Below are positions 604 to 6,612 of a DNA stretch of 38,920 bases, piece by piece. The notes under the pieces were generated by a model. It saw nothing but the letters and a program-made list of their open reading frames with translations. It had not been told where the DNA came from and searched no databases. Source of the stretch: Anaerococcus sp. AGMB09787. GTDB lineage: Bacteria; Bacillota; Clostridia; Tissierellales; Peptoniphilaceae. Both the position numbers and the translations under genes were made by a program. Location: NCBI RefSeq assembly GCF_022808955.1, contig NZ_JAKZEY010000014.1, positions 1 through 38,920 of the forward strand. The letters run 5' to 3'. Position 1 is the stretch's first letter. Each line of letters begins with the position of its first letter.

Positions 604-1767
604 ATGATTATAGGAATTCCAAAAGAAATTATGCACGACGAAGCTAGAGTATCAGCATCACCAGAATCTGTAAAGAAGTATGTTAATGATGGATTTGAAG
701 TGTTGGTAGAAACAAATGCTGGAAGTGGAGCTCACTATTTTGATGAAGACTATAAGGAAGCTGGAGCTAAGATTATAGATTCACCTAAGGAAATTTATGA
801 AAGAGCTGACATAATTTTGAAGGTTAAAGAACCGTTATTCAATGAAGAGTTAAATGTTCACGAAGTTGATCTTATGCATGAAGGTCAGTATTTGATTACT
901 TTTATCCATCCAGCAGCACCAGCTAACCATGAGATGGTTAAGAATATGGCTAAAAAAGGAGTAATATCATTTACATTGGACGGAATTCCTAGAATTTCCC
1001 GTGCGCAAAATATGGATGCCCTTACTTCAATGTCAACATGCGCAGGATATAAGGGAATTCTAATTGCTGCAAATCTACTTACAAAATTTATACCTCAAAT
1101 TTTCTCAGCAGTTGGTATGATGAAGCAAGCTAATGCTTTAGTTATAGGTACTGGAGTAGGTGGTCTTCAAGCTATTGCTACAGCAAAGAGACTAGGTGCT
1201 AAGGTTAAGGCAGCTGATATTAGACCAGATGCTTCAGAGCAAGCAGGAAGCTTGGGAGCGGAAGTTATTGACTTGGGAGTTGATCCAAAGCTTGCAGTTG
1301 GAGAAGGTGGCTATGCCCTAGGCCTACCAGATGATGTCCTTGCTAAGGAAAGAGAAGTCCTAAGAGAGCATGTAAAAGAAGCAGACATTATATTCCTATC
1401 AGCATTAGTACCAGGTGAGCTTGCACCTACCCTTATCACTGAAGATATGGTTAAGGAAATGAAGGATGGTTCTGTAATAGTTGATATTTCTATAGACCAA
1501 GGTGGTAACTGTGAAATAACTCCTCCAGGAGAAATAGGAAATAAATACGGTGTATCTCTTGTAGGTATCAAGAATATACCAGGTGAGCTTCCAACATCTT
1601 CAACATGGATGTTCTCACAAAATGTTTATAATTTAGTATCTTACTTGTTCAAGGATAACAAGCCATCATTTGATTTAGAAGATGAAATAGTTTATAAATC
1701 ACTTGCTACTTATGAAGGAAAGATTGTTCATAAGGGAGCTAAGAAGGCAATGGGTTTAGGTGATTAA
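604..1767 (+). CDS. pntAA: NAD(P) transhydrogenase subunit alpha, part 1 (domain I)
   Basis: This is the soluble NAD(H)-binding domain I of the proton-translocating transhydrogenase, 387 residues, the usual size when the alpha subunit is split in two. It belongs to the alanine dehydrogenase/PNT fold. The start MIIGIPKEI is typical. The motif SRAQNMDAL (about residue 130) carries the Arg, Gln and Asp known to touch NAD in domain I. The Rossmann loop is GTGVGGLQAIATAKRLGA (from about residue 180), followed by ADIRP. The mobile-loop region GEGGYA and the C-terminal STWMFSQN segment are present. The start is set by AAAGGAGGA at 591-599. The next gene begins immediately after the stop codon, so the subunits are probably translationally coupled. 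Domain I looks intact, in contrast to the oddities in PntB. Confidence 0.95.
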   Translation: MIIGIPKEIMHDEARVSASPESVKKYVNDGFEVLVETNAGSGAHYFDEDYKEAGAKIIDSPKEIYERADIILKVKEPLFNEELNVHEVDLMHEGQYLITFIHPAAPANHEMVKNMAKKGVISFTLDGIPRISRAQNMDALTSMSTCAGYKGILIAANLLTKFIPQIFSAVGMMKQANALVIGTGVGGLQAIATAKRLGAKVKAADIRPDASEQAGSLGAEVIDLGVDPKLAVGEGGYALGLPDDVLAKEREVLREHVKEADIIFLSALVPGELAPTLITEDMVKEMKDGSVIVDISIDQGGNCEITPPGEIGNKYGVSLVGIKNIPGELPTSSTWMFSQNVYNLVSYLFKDNKPSFDLEDEIVYKSLATYEGKIVHKGAKKAMGLGD

Positions 1768-2067
1768 ATGAACTTTTTACTAAATCCACTGGCAAAACCT
1801 CTGATTTCCATAGTTTTATTTGTTGTGTCAATGGTTTTAGGCTATAAAATTATCAAGAATGTTCCAAGTTTATTACACACTCCTTTGATGAGTGGGATGA
1901 ATGCACTATCTGGGGTTACCATTATTGGTGCCCTAGTGGTGTTTTCACAAGATTTAGGAACTCGGGGCAAGATTTTTGGCTTTATAGCTATTGTTCTAGC
2001 GACATTTAATGTAGTTGGAGGTTTTAAAGTTACTGACAGAATGTTGAAAATGTTTTCTAACAAGTAG
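1768..2067 (+). CDS. pntAB: NAD(P) transhydrogenase subunit alpha, part 2
   Basis: A 99-residue membrane protein matching the C-terminal part of E. coli PntA, which forms part of membrane domain II. It has about three hydrophobic segments. It contains the conserved LLHTPLMSGMNALSG stretch (35-49) and ends in GGFKVTDRMLKMF, as family members do. At the position where some homologues have a proton-path histidine (NAIHG) this protein has Ser48 (NALSG), as E. coli does. Its ATG directly abuts the pntAA stop, and pntB follows after nine bases. Confidence 0.93.
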   Translation: MNFLLNPLAKPLISIVLFVVSMVLGYKIIKNVPSLLHTPLMSGMNALSGVTIIGALVVFSQDLGTRGKIFGFIAIVLATFNVVGGFKVTDRMLKMFSNK

Positions 2068-2076
2068 GAGACTAAT

Positions 2077-5052
2077 ATGATAATTTTAGGAATCCTTATT
2101 TTAGTTATACTCTTTGGAATTAATTCCATGAGTAAGGTTCAAAATGCCAAGTTTGGTAATAGGCTATCAGCCCTTGCCATGCTTGTTGCTATAATCTACA
2201 CTGTTTTTAAGTTCGAAATATTATCAGAGCCTGTGATATGGGCAGCCATTATCGTGGGTTTTGTTATAGGCTACTATATGGCGGTCAAGGTATCCATGAT
2301 ACAAATGCCTCAAACAGTTGCCCTATTAAATGCCTTTGGAGGTCTGGCAAGTGCCATAGTTGCTATAATATCTATCAATATGGAAGATAAGTTTGTGGCT
2401 ATCACAGGTATGCTTGCTATCTTTATCGGTATCGTAACCTTCGTTGGAAGTGTGGTGGCAGCCCTTAAGCTTGCTAAGGTTATAAATGGAAGACCTATTA
2501 TAATTGGAGGTCATTCTATTTTATTAAACCTAAGTTTAATAGCAAGTATAGTAATATCTCTTCTTGCCATAATGAATATATTACCAACAAATTTCTCAAT
2601 ACTTATAGTGTCTATCTTATCAGTAGTATTTGGTATATTATTTGCAATAAGAGTTGGTGGGGCAGATATGCCTATTGTAATATCCCTACTAAATTCTACA
2701 TCAGGAGTGGCAGGATCCATATCAGGAATGGTAATATTTAACCCTCTATTGATATCAGTAGGATCTATAGTAGGCGCAAGTGGTCTTATCCTAACACAAA
2801 TAATGTGTAAGTCAATGAATAGGAGACTTATAGATATCCTAATAGGATCAACAAGCACCAAGAAGCCTAGCAAGAAGACCCAAACTAAGGCAAGTGTACC
2901 AGTTGTAGAAAATAAGGAAATAGAAAAAGAAATAAAAGATGTATTTTCTTATGATAATCTAAAGAAAGTAACTATAGTCCCAGGCTATGGAATGGCTTTA
3001 TCCCAAGCTCAAGCCAAGGTAAAAGAATTAATGGAAGCCTTGGAGAAAAAGGGAGCAGAGGTAGACTTTGCCATCCATCTGGTAGCAGGAAGAATGCCAG
3101 GACATATGAATGTTCTTTTGGCAGAAGTAGACATAGACTATACAAAATTTAAGGAATTAGAAGAAGCAAATAAAAACTTTGAAAATACAGATCTAGTAAT
3201 AGTAATAGGAGCAAATGACGTAGTAAATCCAGCAGCCAACACTGCCGAGGGAACCCCAATCTATGGAATGCCAGTATTGGATATATATAAGGCAAAGAAA
3301 ATATTTGTCCTAAACTTTGATACCAAATCAGGTTATGCAGGAGTAGAAAATCCTCTATATGAAGATGAAAATACTAGGTTAATCCTAGGCGATGCTAAAG
3401 AGTCTATAGAAACACTTTTATCTGAAATAAGAAATGAAAAATCTGTAGCAGTAGGCGTGCCTCCTGTTAATGTTGATAGCTTTGACTATAATAACTTAAA
3501 GAAAGTAACCATAGTCCCGGGCTATGGAATGGCTTTATCCCAAGCTCAAGCCAAGGTAAAAGAATTAATGGAAGCCTTGGAGAAAAAGGGAGCAGAGGTA
3601 GACTTTGCCATCCACCCAGTCGCAGGAAGAATGCCAGGCCATATGAATGTATTGCTGGCAGAAGTAAACATAGACTACACCAAATTTAAGGAACTCGAAG
3701 AAGCTAATAAAAACTTCGAAAGCACTGACCTAGTAATAGTCATAGGAGCAAATGACGTAGTAAACCCAGCAGCAAATACAGCCGAAGGGACCCCAATCTA
3801 CGGAATGCCAGTATTGGATATATATAAGGCAAAGAAAATATTTGTCCTAAACTTTGATACCAAACCAGGTTATGCAGGGGTAGAAAATCCTCTTTACGAA
3901 GATGAAAATACTAGGTTAATCCTAGGCGATGCTAAAGAGTCTATAGAAACACTTTTATCTGAAATAAGAAATGAAAATACTACACCAGTAAGCGAAGTTG
4001 TAGGAGTAGCTAGTGATTCTTTCGATTATAATAACTTAAAGAAAGTAACCATAGTCCCAGGCTACGGAATGGCCCTATCCCAAGCCCAAGCCAAGGTAAA
4101 AGAATTAATGGAAGCCTTGGAGAAAAAGGGAGCAGAGGTAGACTTCGCCATCCATCCGGTAGCAGGAAGAATGCCAGGCCATATGAATGTATTGCTGGCA
4201 GAGGTTGACATAGACTATACAAAATTTAAGGAATTAGAAGAAGCAAACAAAAATTTTGAAAATACAGACCTAGTAATAGTAATAGGAGCAAATGACGTAG
4301 TAAATCCAGCAGCAAATACAGCCGAAGGAACCCCAATCTATGGAATGCCAGTATTGGATATATATAAGGCAAAGAAAATATTTGTCCTAAACTTTGATAA
4401 AAAACCAGGTTATGCAGGGGTAGAAAATCCTCTATATGAAGATGAAAATACTAGGTTAATATTAGGAGATGCTAAAGAATCTATATCTATATTACTTGAT
4501 GAGATCAAAAATGATAATCCTAATTTAGGAAAAAATGTTGAAAATTCTAATGATAAATTTTCTTACGATAATCTAAAAGAAGTAACTATAGTCCCAGGCT
4601 ACGGAATGGCCCTATCTCAAGCTCAAGCCAAGGTGAAAGAATTAATGGAAGCCTTGGAGAAAAAGGGAGCAGAGGTAGACTTCGCCATCCATCCGGTAGC
4701 AGGAAGAATGCCAGGACATATGAATGTTCTCTTGGCAGAGGTAGACATAGACTACACCAAATTTAAGGAATTAGAAGAAGCAAACGAAAATTTCAAAAAT
4801 AAGGACTTGGTAATAGTAATCGGAGCAAATGACGTAGTAAACCCAGCAGCCAACACAGCTGAAGGAACTCCAATCTACGGAATGCCAGTGCTCAATGTAA
4901 GCGAGGCTTCCAAGGTCTTTGTCCTAAACTTTGATACCAAATCAGGTTATGCAGGGGTCGACAATCCTCTTTATGAAGATTCTAAGGCAAGGTTGATATT
5001 AGGAGATGCAAAAGAGTCAATTGCCAAATTAATTGAAGAAATCAACGGATGA
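2077..5052 (+). CDS. pntB: NAD(P) transhydrogenase subunit beta with four tandem domain III copies
   Basis: PntB holds membrane domain II and the NADP(H)-binding domain III of transhydrogenase. The protein is 991 residues; the usual length is about 460. Residues 1 to about 260 are the normal multi-span domain II, with the MIQMPQTVALLN and GGADMPIVISLLNSTSG motifs. A Lys/Glu-rich linker follows (about 260-289). Four domain III units then start at residues 290, 469, 649 and 828. Each carries the nucleotide fold VPGYGMALSQAQ, AGRMPGHMNVLLAE, VIGANDVVNPAAN, GMPVL, a GYAGV lid and GDAKES. Units are nearly identical and separated by variable linkers of about 20 residues. All copies read LNFD where characterised enzymes have a Lys-Arg-Ser triplet that binds the NADP 2'-phosphate. 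Asn85 replaces E. coli His91. A single continuous frame across four diverged copies argues for a real protein and not a pseudogene. Confidence 0.95.
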   Translation: MIILGILILVILFGINSMSKVQNAKFGNRLSALAMLVAIIYTVFKFEILSEPVIWAAIIVGFVIGYYMAVKVSMIQMPQTVALLNAFGGLASAIVAIISINMEDKFVAITGMLAIFIGIVTFVGSVVAALKLAKVINGRPIIIGGHSILLNLSLIASIVISLLAIMNILPTNFSILIVSILSVVFGILFAIRVGGADMPIVISLLNSTSGVAGSISGMVIFNPLLISVGSIVGASGLILTQIMCKSMNRRLIDILIGSTSTKKPSKKTQTKASVPVVENKEIEKEIKDVFSYDNLKKVTIVPGYGMALSQAQAKVKELMEALEKKGAEVDFAIHLVAGRMPGHMNVLLAEVDIDYTKFKELEEANKNFENTDLVIVIGANDVVNPAANTAEGTPIYGMPVLDIYKAKKIFVLNFDTKSGYAGVENPLYEDENTRLILGDAKESIETLLSEIRNEKSVAVGVPPVNVDSFDYNNLKKVTIVPGYGMALSQAQAKVKELMEALEKKGAEVDFAIHPVAGRMPGHMNVLLAEVNIDYTKFKELEEANKNFESTDLVIVIGANDVVNPAANTAEGTPIYGMPVLDIYKAKKIFVLNFDTKPGYAGVENPLYEDENTRLILGDAKESIETLLSEIRNENTTPVSEVVGVASDSFDYNNLKKVTIVPGYGMALSQAQAKVKELMEALEKKGAEVDFAIHPVAGRMPGHMNVLLAEVDIDYTKFKELEEANKNFENTDLVIVIGANDVVNPAANTAEGTPIYGMPVLDIYKAKKIFVLNFDKKPGYAGVENPLYEDENTRLILGDAKESISILLDEIKNDNPNLGKNVENSNDKFSYDNLKEVTIVPGYGMALSQAQAKVKELMEALEKKGAEVDFAIHPVAGRMPGHMNVLLAEVDIDYTKFKELEEANENFKNKDLVIVIGANDVVNPAANTAEGTPIYGMPVLNVSEASKVFVLNFDTKSGYAGVDNPLYEDSKARLILGDAKESIAKLIEEING
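2944..5049 (+). repeat. Four in-frame tandem repeats encoding PntB domain III
   Basis: Units lie at 2944-3480 (537 bp), 3481-4020 (540 bp), 4021-4557 (537 bp) and 4558-5049 (492 bp, no trailing linker). Long blocks are identical or nearly so at base level, for example the block beginning AAGGTAAAAGAATTAATGG, while synonymous differences (cca/ccg, ctat/ctac) are scattered through them. Differences concentrate in the linkers and in the second half of unit 4. The head of unit 1 (FSYDNLK) resembles that of unit 4, while units 2 and 3 share FDYNNLK. This suggests expansion from an ancestral single copy by unequal crossing-over. Confidence 0.93.
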
Positions 5053-5086: not shown

Positions 5087-5202
5087 AGTATAAGTTTAAA
5101 AATTAACAAAAATTGATTAAGAGCTTTTAAGTGTAGAGATTTTTCCGGGTTAATCTTTACTTAATTGGATAATAAGTTTATTTAAGAAGGAAAGGTTTGA
5201 TT

Positions 5203-6612
5203 ATGGCTAAGCTTATAAAGTTAAATGAAGAGCTGAGCGATTTTTTGTGGGGAATCCCGATGATCGTAGTTTTGTTGTTTGGTGGGATATACTTATTATA
5301 TAAGTCAGAATTTTGGGTTTTTAGAAATTTTATCTATATTTTTAAAAACACCTTTGGAAGATTGGTTAAGGATTCATCTAGCGATGAAAATTCTATATCC
5401 CCTTTTCAAGCTGTATCTACAGCCCTTGCAGGAACTATAGGGGCGGGTAATATTGTAGGAGTAGCTACGGCAATAAGTTTTGGAGGTCCAGGAGCTATAT
5501 TTTGGATGTGGGTTGCAGCCCTTGTATGTATGACTACTAAGATGGTTGAAGTTACCATGGCCCTTGCCACAAGAGAACGTGATGAGATGGGTAATTATAT
5601 AGGCGGTCCTATGTATTATATATCCAAGGGGGCAGGATCTAAGTTTCTGGCGAAGCTTTTCTCATTCTTTGCCTTTATAGCGATAATTGGAACAGGAGCC
5701 TTGGTTCAAGCAAATTCAATGTCTGAATCTATTAATAATATCACAGGCCTATCCCTTCCTCTAATAGGAGTCTTGATAGTAATCTTTATGCTATTGGTAG
5801 TTGTTGGAGGAATTAAGAGAATAGGATCTTTTGCAGAAAAAGTCGTGCCTTTTATGTCAATATTTTATGTCTTGGGTTGCCTGGTGATTTTGTTTGCCAA
5901 TGCCAACCTCATTATTCCAGCTTTTAAGAGAATAGTAGTGGGAGCCTTCACTACTTCTTCAGCTGTGGGAGGATTTGCAGGAACGACTATGCTTATGTCC
6001 TTGAGATGGGGACTTGCTAGGGGGATTTTCTCCAATGAAGCAGGACTTGGAACTGCCCCTATGGCCCACGCAACAAGCCACACCGACCACCCAGTTAGAC
6101 AAGGAATGTGGGGATCTATAGAAGTTTTTGTATCTTCTATGATAATATGTACCATGACAGCCCTAGTTATAATTACAAGTGGTCTCTGGGTTGACCCTAA
6201 CCTTAATGGAGCATCACTCACTGCCAATGCTTTCTCTAAAACGATACCATTAGGAAAGTATTTGGTATCTCTAGCTCTAATCCTCTTTGCCTTTACAACA
6301 GCGGTATCTTGGTGCTATTATGGCCAAAGATGTGTAAAATATCTCACCGGCTCAACTAAGCTAGAATCTCTGTTTAAATACCTTTATATAGGATGCTGCT
6401 TTGTTGGCTCAATTGGTGGGCTAAAATTTGCTTGGAATGTAGCAGATACAGCCAATGCCTTGATGGTAATACCAAACATAATAGCCCTAATTATGATGGC
6501 CAATACCTTCAAGAAACTCCTCAAGGACTTTGATAAGTATAAGGACAATGAGAAAAAGGGCGATTATAATTGGACTTTCGAAAACAAGTGGAAGGCATAT
6601 TTTAATAATTAA
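5203..6612 (+). CDS. Sodium:alanine/glutamine symporter, AGCS family
   Basis: A membrane carrier of the alanine/glycine:cation symporter family, which takes up small neutral amino acids with sodium. Many hydrophobic segments are visible. Family signatures are GTIGAGNIVGVATAISFGGP in the first third, the GGPMYYI segment, and NEAGLGTAPMAHA in the middle. From the ATG at 5203 it is 469 residues, a normal length. An in-frame TTG at 5197 would add two residues, but the ribosome binding site AGAAGGAAAGG (5185-5195) is better placed for the ATG. The gene is monocistronic, with terminators on both sides. The exact substrate (alanine, glycine or glutamine) cannot be read from sequence. Uptake fits an amino-acid fermenter that keeps a sodium gradient. 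Confidence 0.9.
   Translation: MAKLIKLNEELSDFLWGIPMIVVLLFGGIYLLYKSEFWVFRNFIYIFKNTFGRLVKDSSSDENSISPFQAVSTALAGTIGAGNIVGVATAISFGGPGAIFWMWVAALVCMTTKMVEVTMALATRERDEMGNYIGGPMYYISKGAGSKFLAKLFSFFAFIAIIGTGALVQANSMSESINNITGLSLPLIGVLIVIFMLLVVVGGIKRIGSFAEKVVPFMSIFYVLGCLVILFANANLIIPAFKRIVVGAFTTSSAVGGFAGTTMLMSLRWGLARGIFSNEAGLGTAPMAHATSHTDHPVRQGMWGSIEVFVSSMIICTMTALVIITSGLWVDPNLNGASLTANAFSKTIPLGKYLVSLALILFAFTTAVSWCYYGQRCVKYLTGSTKLESLFKYLYIGCCFVGSIGGLKFAWNVADTANALMVIPNIIALIMMANTFKKLLKDFDKYKDNEKKGDYNWTFENKWKAYFNN

Follow-up and report, generated by a model that had tools for sequence, protein, structure and literature searches.

The transhydrogenase of Escherichia coli, PntAB (PDB 9l76), is encoded by two genes (PMC5742237) and has one copy of domain III (dIII), with a KRS loop. 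The Thermus thermophilus enzyme (PDB 4o9u) also has one dIII, with the loop reading KRG, and is split over genes for alpha1, alpha2 and beta. According to one proposal, dIII swivels so as to attend to domains I and II by turns; in a dimer its two copies are oppositely oriented, and on its own dIII has a much higher affinity for NADP(H) than within the holoenzyme (PMC5742237). Eukaryotic alpha-beta and beta-alpha transhydrogenases use the same domains in rearranged or fused chains, with tandem nth genes in Porospora; in the portions of that account drawn on here, whole genes or subunits are rearranged or repeated, not dIII inside one chain (PMC7614955). The PntB protein discussed below resembles the T. 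thermophilus system in its gene split, in the folds of domain II and dIII, and in its coupling Asp and Arg, and it shares 38% identity with the E. coli protein over the whole chain (Foldseek alignment). It differs from both in carrying four dIII instead of one and an NFD loop in place of KRG or KRS, and from the E. coli system in having three genes instead of two.

A pntB gene with four domain III units

The window, meaning the whole 38,920-nt stretch that was analysed, is contig C6:1-38920 of a 2.0 Mb, 53-contig draft genome (G000). Three consecutive genes on its forward strand encode pntAA, pntAB, and pntB, with the first two intact upstream of pntB. The 387-residue product of pntAA (604..1767, +) is the NAD(H)-binding domain I, with matches to Pfam AlaDh_PNT_N and AlaDh_PNT_C and to PDB 1f8g (E 2.6e-80); its ribose Asp lies within ADIRP and its RQD loop reads RISRAQNMDALTS. 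The 99-residue product of pntAB (1768..2067, +; Pfam PNTB_4TM) supplies the first transmembrane helices of domain II. It can be aligned with T. thermophilus alpha2 through the histidine of HTPLMSG, and by this motif the TM3 channel histidine is present (His42 of alpha2 in the numbering of the review). The 991-residue pntB frame (2077..5052, +), delimited by its open reading frame, Pfam matches, and motifs, begins with the rest of the domain II helices (residues 1 to about 256; 2077..2844, +), as judged by alignment to 4o9u and 9l76 and by the helices of the predicted model. Residues D197 and R249 of this part align with T. thermophilus D202 and R254, whose coupling roles have been described (PMC5742237), and T. 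thermophilus T214, important in that enzyme, is Ser here. The protein probably functions as a PntB. Downstream of pntB on the same strand lies a gene of the sodium:alanine symporter family (Pfam Na_Ala_symp, window 5197-6612).

After a low-confidence linker (residues 259-288; 2851..2940, +), the pntB frame continues into four dIII units. As the first-pass annotation had it, these begin in frame at residues 290, 469, 649, and 828 (nt 2944, 3481, 4021, and 4558). Unit 1 with its trailing linker spans 2944..3480 (+; NFD loop at 3313-3321), unit 2 with its linker 3481..4020 (+; loop at 3850-3858), unit 3 with its linker 4021..4557 (+; loop at 4390-4398), and the terminal and most diverged unit 4 occupies 4558..5049 (+; loop at 4927-4935). 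A repeat search returned four 300-nt copies with 90-92% identity to the first copy and a spacing of 537, 540, and 537 nt. The Pfam family PNTB matches the protein in four stretches, with 1251 bits against a curated cut-off of 31.7, and units 2-4 score E 2e-77 to 1e-75 when each is compared alone with the family model, which excludes a chance resemblance. The 150-residue cores of the units are pairwise 87-97% identical in protein and 83-93% in DNA.

Each unit had also been credited with all the motifs of the fold. This holds for the dIII fingerprints, and no unit contains an internal stop: the Rossmann motifs GYG, HPVAGRMPGHM, GANDVVNP, and GYAGV occur in all four, except that unit 1 has His-Leu in place of His-Pro, the only such change among 106 aligned units. 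It does not hold for the KRS loop, which reads NFD in four of four. The second half of unit 4 is indeed distinct, with the differences of this unit concentrated there; they include unit residues 113-120, after GMPVL. In near-invariant columns, unit 1 carries P39L and P122S and unit 4 carries P122S.

In an AlphaFold model, strands and helices follow one another in almost the same order in each of the four units, and the whole-model pTM is only 0.41. Best Foldseek hits include the E. coli and T. thermophilus PntB proteins and isolated dIII chains (2fsv, 1pno). The model also agrees with the flexible linkers proposed earlier, with pLDDT below 50 at residues 259-288, 454-466, 633-646, and 814-825. 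Between model-matched cores, 33 inter-unit spacers measure 27-62 residues and are rich in alanine and glutamate, and these lengths are compatible with free arms.

We regard the four-unit frame as genuine on the sequence evidence. A single dIII could in principle have been falsely multiplied during assembly or sequencing, given that G000 is a 53-contig draft and that many related drafts are broken inside dIII. True repeats, however, themselves cause drafts to break. Up to 17% of nucleotides differ between units, and a misassembly would not invent the synonymous distances of 0.31-0.78 that separate them. Because the longest exact stretch common to any two units is 95 nt and arrays also occur in three single-contig genomes (two units each in G155 and G625, four in G632), such an error is very unlikely.

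Distribution and history of the arrays

The four-unit protein had been taken for a singular architecture, a view not borne out by counting the dIII units of each PntB homologue, which uncovered multi-unit proteins of two to four units in many relatives. Searches with PF02233 covered 31 genomes of the genus (2 with a match), 130 of the family (4), 249 of the order (7), and an even sample of 398 genomes from the phylum, in which 51 had a match and 49 were over the cut-off. All of these 49, the window included, were read. In 17, domain II is followed in the same frame by two or more dIII (in G547 and G747 the frame is cut by a contig end, and in G473 it crosses an N gap in a linker), and in five more, contigs that are gapped or split carry two or more dIII (G409, G558, G647, G730, and G772). 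Another five are split inside dIII and hence are not countable (G583, G623, G671, G726, and G786). A single dIII is found in 21, of which 15 have the loop motif N-x-D and six have KR[SG]. One of the 15 N-x-D singles, G743, also has a second copy, with a gap, in which another unit begins. The remaining genome, G459 (L115), has an N-x-D pntB broken across three frames and holds either a pseudogene or a badly read gene. In G485 (L123), a detached third dIII-like frame of 157 aa beyond the stop of a two-unit pntB is possibly a decaying unit. Four contigs (L113 of G409, L131 of G558, L119 of G473, and L157 of G730) contain ten N runs of 109-308 bases, eight of them in a dIII array or linker. Since scaffolds break at dIII repeats, databases undercount the units.

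The search was extended to other phyla, where PF02233 matched three of 147 genomes in the family of an Anaerolineaceae genome, 153 of 400 (150 over the cut-off) in an even sample of the phylum of that genome, and 117 of 247 in the phylum of a Proteiniphilum MAG. All three Anaerolineaceae PntB proteins have three units. Eight genomes of the 400-genome sample besides G249 have two PF02233 matches. Three of these (G890, G1075, and G1092) have one dIII each, partial in G1075 and split over two frames in G1092, and the other five have frames of 278-581 aa, below the shortest two-unit protein found (641 aa). No array was found in the 247-genome phylum of the Proteiniphilum MAG, where the second match of one genome is weak and lies in a frame of 54 aa. 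Among plasmids, 296 records carry PntB, all below 60% identity; the best 5 of the 296 match over about 1.3 kb each, with no array among these five. Complete frames with four units are present in four proteins (the window, G462, G471, and G632), frames with three units in five (G249, G250, G329, G501, and G704), and frames with two units in eleven. The arrays found in these other genomes rule out an invention unique to this species.

Within the genus, PntB occurs in only 2 of 31 genomes and zwf has no match in any of the 31, a patchy picture in which NADPH routes were gained or lost. A TIGR01316-type protein scores above the cut-off in 28 of the 31; the name of that family is glutamate synthase-like, so this count is silent on other NADPH routes.

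The units of an array are kept, as the first-pass annotation had proposed, and not merely duplicated. Unit pairs of the window have dS 0.31-0.78 and dN/dS 0.05-0.13, indicating purifying selection. Pairing units within 21 arrays or fragments of arrays gave 51 pairs, and the 30 pairs with dS 0.2-2 have a median dN/dS of 0.057 and a maximum of 0.174; young pairs, which fall outside this range, reach 0.31 on very few changes (G068), and saturated ones give few usable values. By these sequence comparisons, diverged units are under strong purifying selection. Gene conversion lowers both rates and by itself should not yield such dN/dS values. Nearly identical units are seen in G155, G068, G625, and G529 (nucleotide identity 0.97-0.98) and in three of the four units of G632, and such units are too young to show selection. 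Over 59 near-invariant columns, the mean number of deviations is 0.95 for 55 array units and 0.36 for 22 single-unit sequences, a difference partly explained by the columns having been picked on the singles.

Array length has changed often. On a tree made from domain II only (80 rows), at least 11 changes between single and multiple units are required (67 rows counted, 13 left out as not countable), and the multi-unit proteins, 22 of 44 N-x-D proteins, are scattered over it. On a tree of 82 N-x-D units, read by eye, the units group by protein in 13 of 21 arrays, which suggests recent duplication or homogenisation. The four units of the window form one such group, with the one unit of G019, a genome of the same genus, inside it beside unit 4. 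A possible view of length variation comes from the MAG Anaerococcus sp. SUG356, in which the pntB contig (L009) ends 95 nt into unit 1 and the next contig (L028) starts with the last 141 nt of L009 as an exact overlap and continues into a unit whose place on the tree is with unit 4 of the window. The contig names carry k141. This overlap probably represents a fork in the assembly graph, with alleles of different array length in that sample, and less probably a misassembly. Array length would change through unequal recombination between similar units.

This lability invites the explanation that recombination simply lengthens and shortens the array, with extra units that are useless but tolerated since they fold without interfering. 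The grouping of units by protein and the existence of same-genus relatives with one unit (G069 vs G068, G154 vs G155) fit such a neutral expansion. Nevertheless, we consider it unlikely, given the strong purifying selection on long-diverged units and the retention of three units in all three Anaerolineaceae proteins. It also sits poorly with the unit tree, on which the last units of G462, G501, G772, and G730 cluster (93/89), as do the first units of G462, G501, G772, and G471 (96/96). These clusters across genomes indicate that the array of the G462/G501/G772 lineage probably predates the separation of those genomes and has outlived it intact.

The same positional grouping hints at a division of labour in this one lineage, in which position would assign the job, for example with one unit docking on domain II and the others acting as hydride acceptors or as an NADP(H) reserve. 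Residues 113-120 of unit 4 and the His-Leu of unit 1 in the window could be read in the same way. Set against this are the active residues, which are identical across the four units of the window, and the by-protein grouping in the window, G632, G704, G250, and G329, with the lone G019 unit falling within the window group. Position-specific jobs therefore appear quite unlikely.

A replaced loop at the nucleotide site

In all four units of the window, the KRS loop at the dIII NADP site is replaced by NFD. Over 106 units, the loop triplet reads N[LYFRM]D in 82 and KR[SG] in 24, with no intermediates, and the solved chains in the alignments have KRS or KRG. The K and R of KRS hold the 2'-phosphate. 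Residues 424-426 of E. coli PntB are this KRS motif, part of the nucleotide-binding site, and the preference for NADP(H) over NAD(H) is attributed to loops D and E (PMC9529548). With this motif replaced, the label "NADP-binding" is uncertain for the units of the window.

The loop change marks a division within the family. On the domain II tree, made without dIII, a single branch (100/100) splits the N-x-D and KR types and the window PntB falls with the N-x-D sequences (100/100); the tree program warns of long branches, which leaves the depth and root of the split unsure. The N-x-D clade, in which 82 of 82 units have this loop, is found mainly in anaerobic bacteria. Arrays occur in 22 of 44 N-x-D proteins (21 others are single and one is not countable) vs none of 24 KR proteins, for a Fisher p of 5e-6 that ignores relatedness, N-x-D being one clade. 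The array-bearing N-x-D clade is a new form of a known enzyme, with no description of a multi-dIII PntB or of the clade found among the matches listed in the open-licence literature. The pntB of Limnochordia sp. 5 has been reported as expressed (PMC11844248).

Specificity in domain I has not shifted along with the loop. All 40 N-x-D operons and all 23 KR operons have the NAD-type ribose Asp of domain I, and the residues R, Q, and D of the RQD loop are likewise kept in all 40 N-x-D operons, which rules out a change of specificity in domain I. A second clade-specific change is seen in this partner domain, where DQGGN is the form in 39 N-x-D operons out of 40, with X in the last one, and in none of the 23 KR operons, which have ten other forms there. 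A conserved lysine after the loop (NxDxK) is a weak candidate for a KR substitute, as it is absent in G632 (NYDTS in all four units) and G485 (NFDAN).

The dIII of the N-x-D clade might bind NAD(H) or recognise the 2'-phosphate otherwise, and arrays might have evolved as binding became weaker or exchange no longer needed domain II. The clean split of the loop triplet, its location at the NADP(H) site, and the restriction of arrays to the N-x-D clade among the proteins read would suit such a change of nucleotide. Yet N-x-D singles are as common as arrays (21 vs 22), and domain I remains of the NAD type. If both sides used NAD, the enzyme would do no more than let protons leak and dissipate the gradient, which leaves either another way of holding the 2'-phosphate or an undescribed activity. 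As an explanation of the arrays, we judge a changed nucleotide distinctly improbable. A speculative extension, with the odds clearly against it, is that the N-x-D clade gave up the canonical KRS loop, that its arms hold another nucleotide or hold theirs more loosely and exchange it away from the channel, and that dIII was so freed to multiply, to as many as four shuttles per channel. If this were true, the N-x-D array would be a multi-arm redox pump unlike any characterised transhydrogenase.

A proposed role: several arms for one channel

Our preferred reading, to which we give a probability of roughly 0.5 on sequence and analogy, is that the window PntB is the beta subunit of a three-gene proton-translocating transhydrogenase in which four selected dIII units act as interchangeable carriers. 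Each dIII would be a swinging hydride carrier on a flexible linker. One arm could engage domain II for nucleotide exchange and the proton step while another engages domain I for hydride transfer, and a loaded neighbour could immediately take the place of a docked arm. With more loaded carriers for each membrane channel, the local carrier concentration and the flux would rise. One unit is enough for 21 of the 44 N-x-D proteins, so an array is dispensable.

Multiplied carrier domains have precedents outside this family. The lipoyl domains of pyruvate dehydrogenase E2 are swinging carriers in a soluble complex, with a fold unrelated to dIII. Acyl carrier proteins are likewise unrelated to dIII in fold and chemistry, with a covalent acyl carrier vs a bound nucleotide. 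As functional parallels rather than family members, lipoyl domains vary in number in E2 (PMC8421416), and the tandem acyl carrier proteins of PUFA synthase, the closest parallel that has been put to the test, increase output as their copy number grows (PMC5067506).

Bioenergetics has long asked how dIII divides itself between domain I and the proton channel, and has done so with enzymes whose dimers contain two dIII (PMC5742237). Nature also supplies enzymes with four, six, or eight dIII in each dimer, if a dimer is assumed, and close relatives that have one or two units; together these permit a direct test of the swinging arm. The N-x-D loop in turn calls into question which nucleotide is bound, and thus bears on the supply of NADPH in anaerobes and on annotations of these proteins as NADP(H)-dependent.
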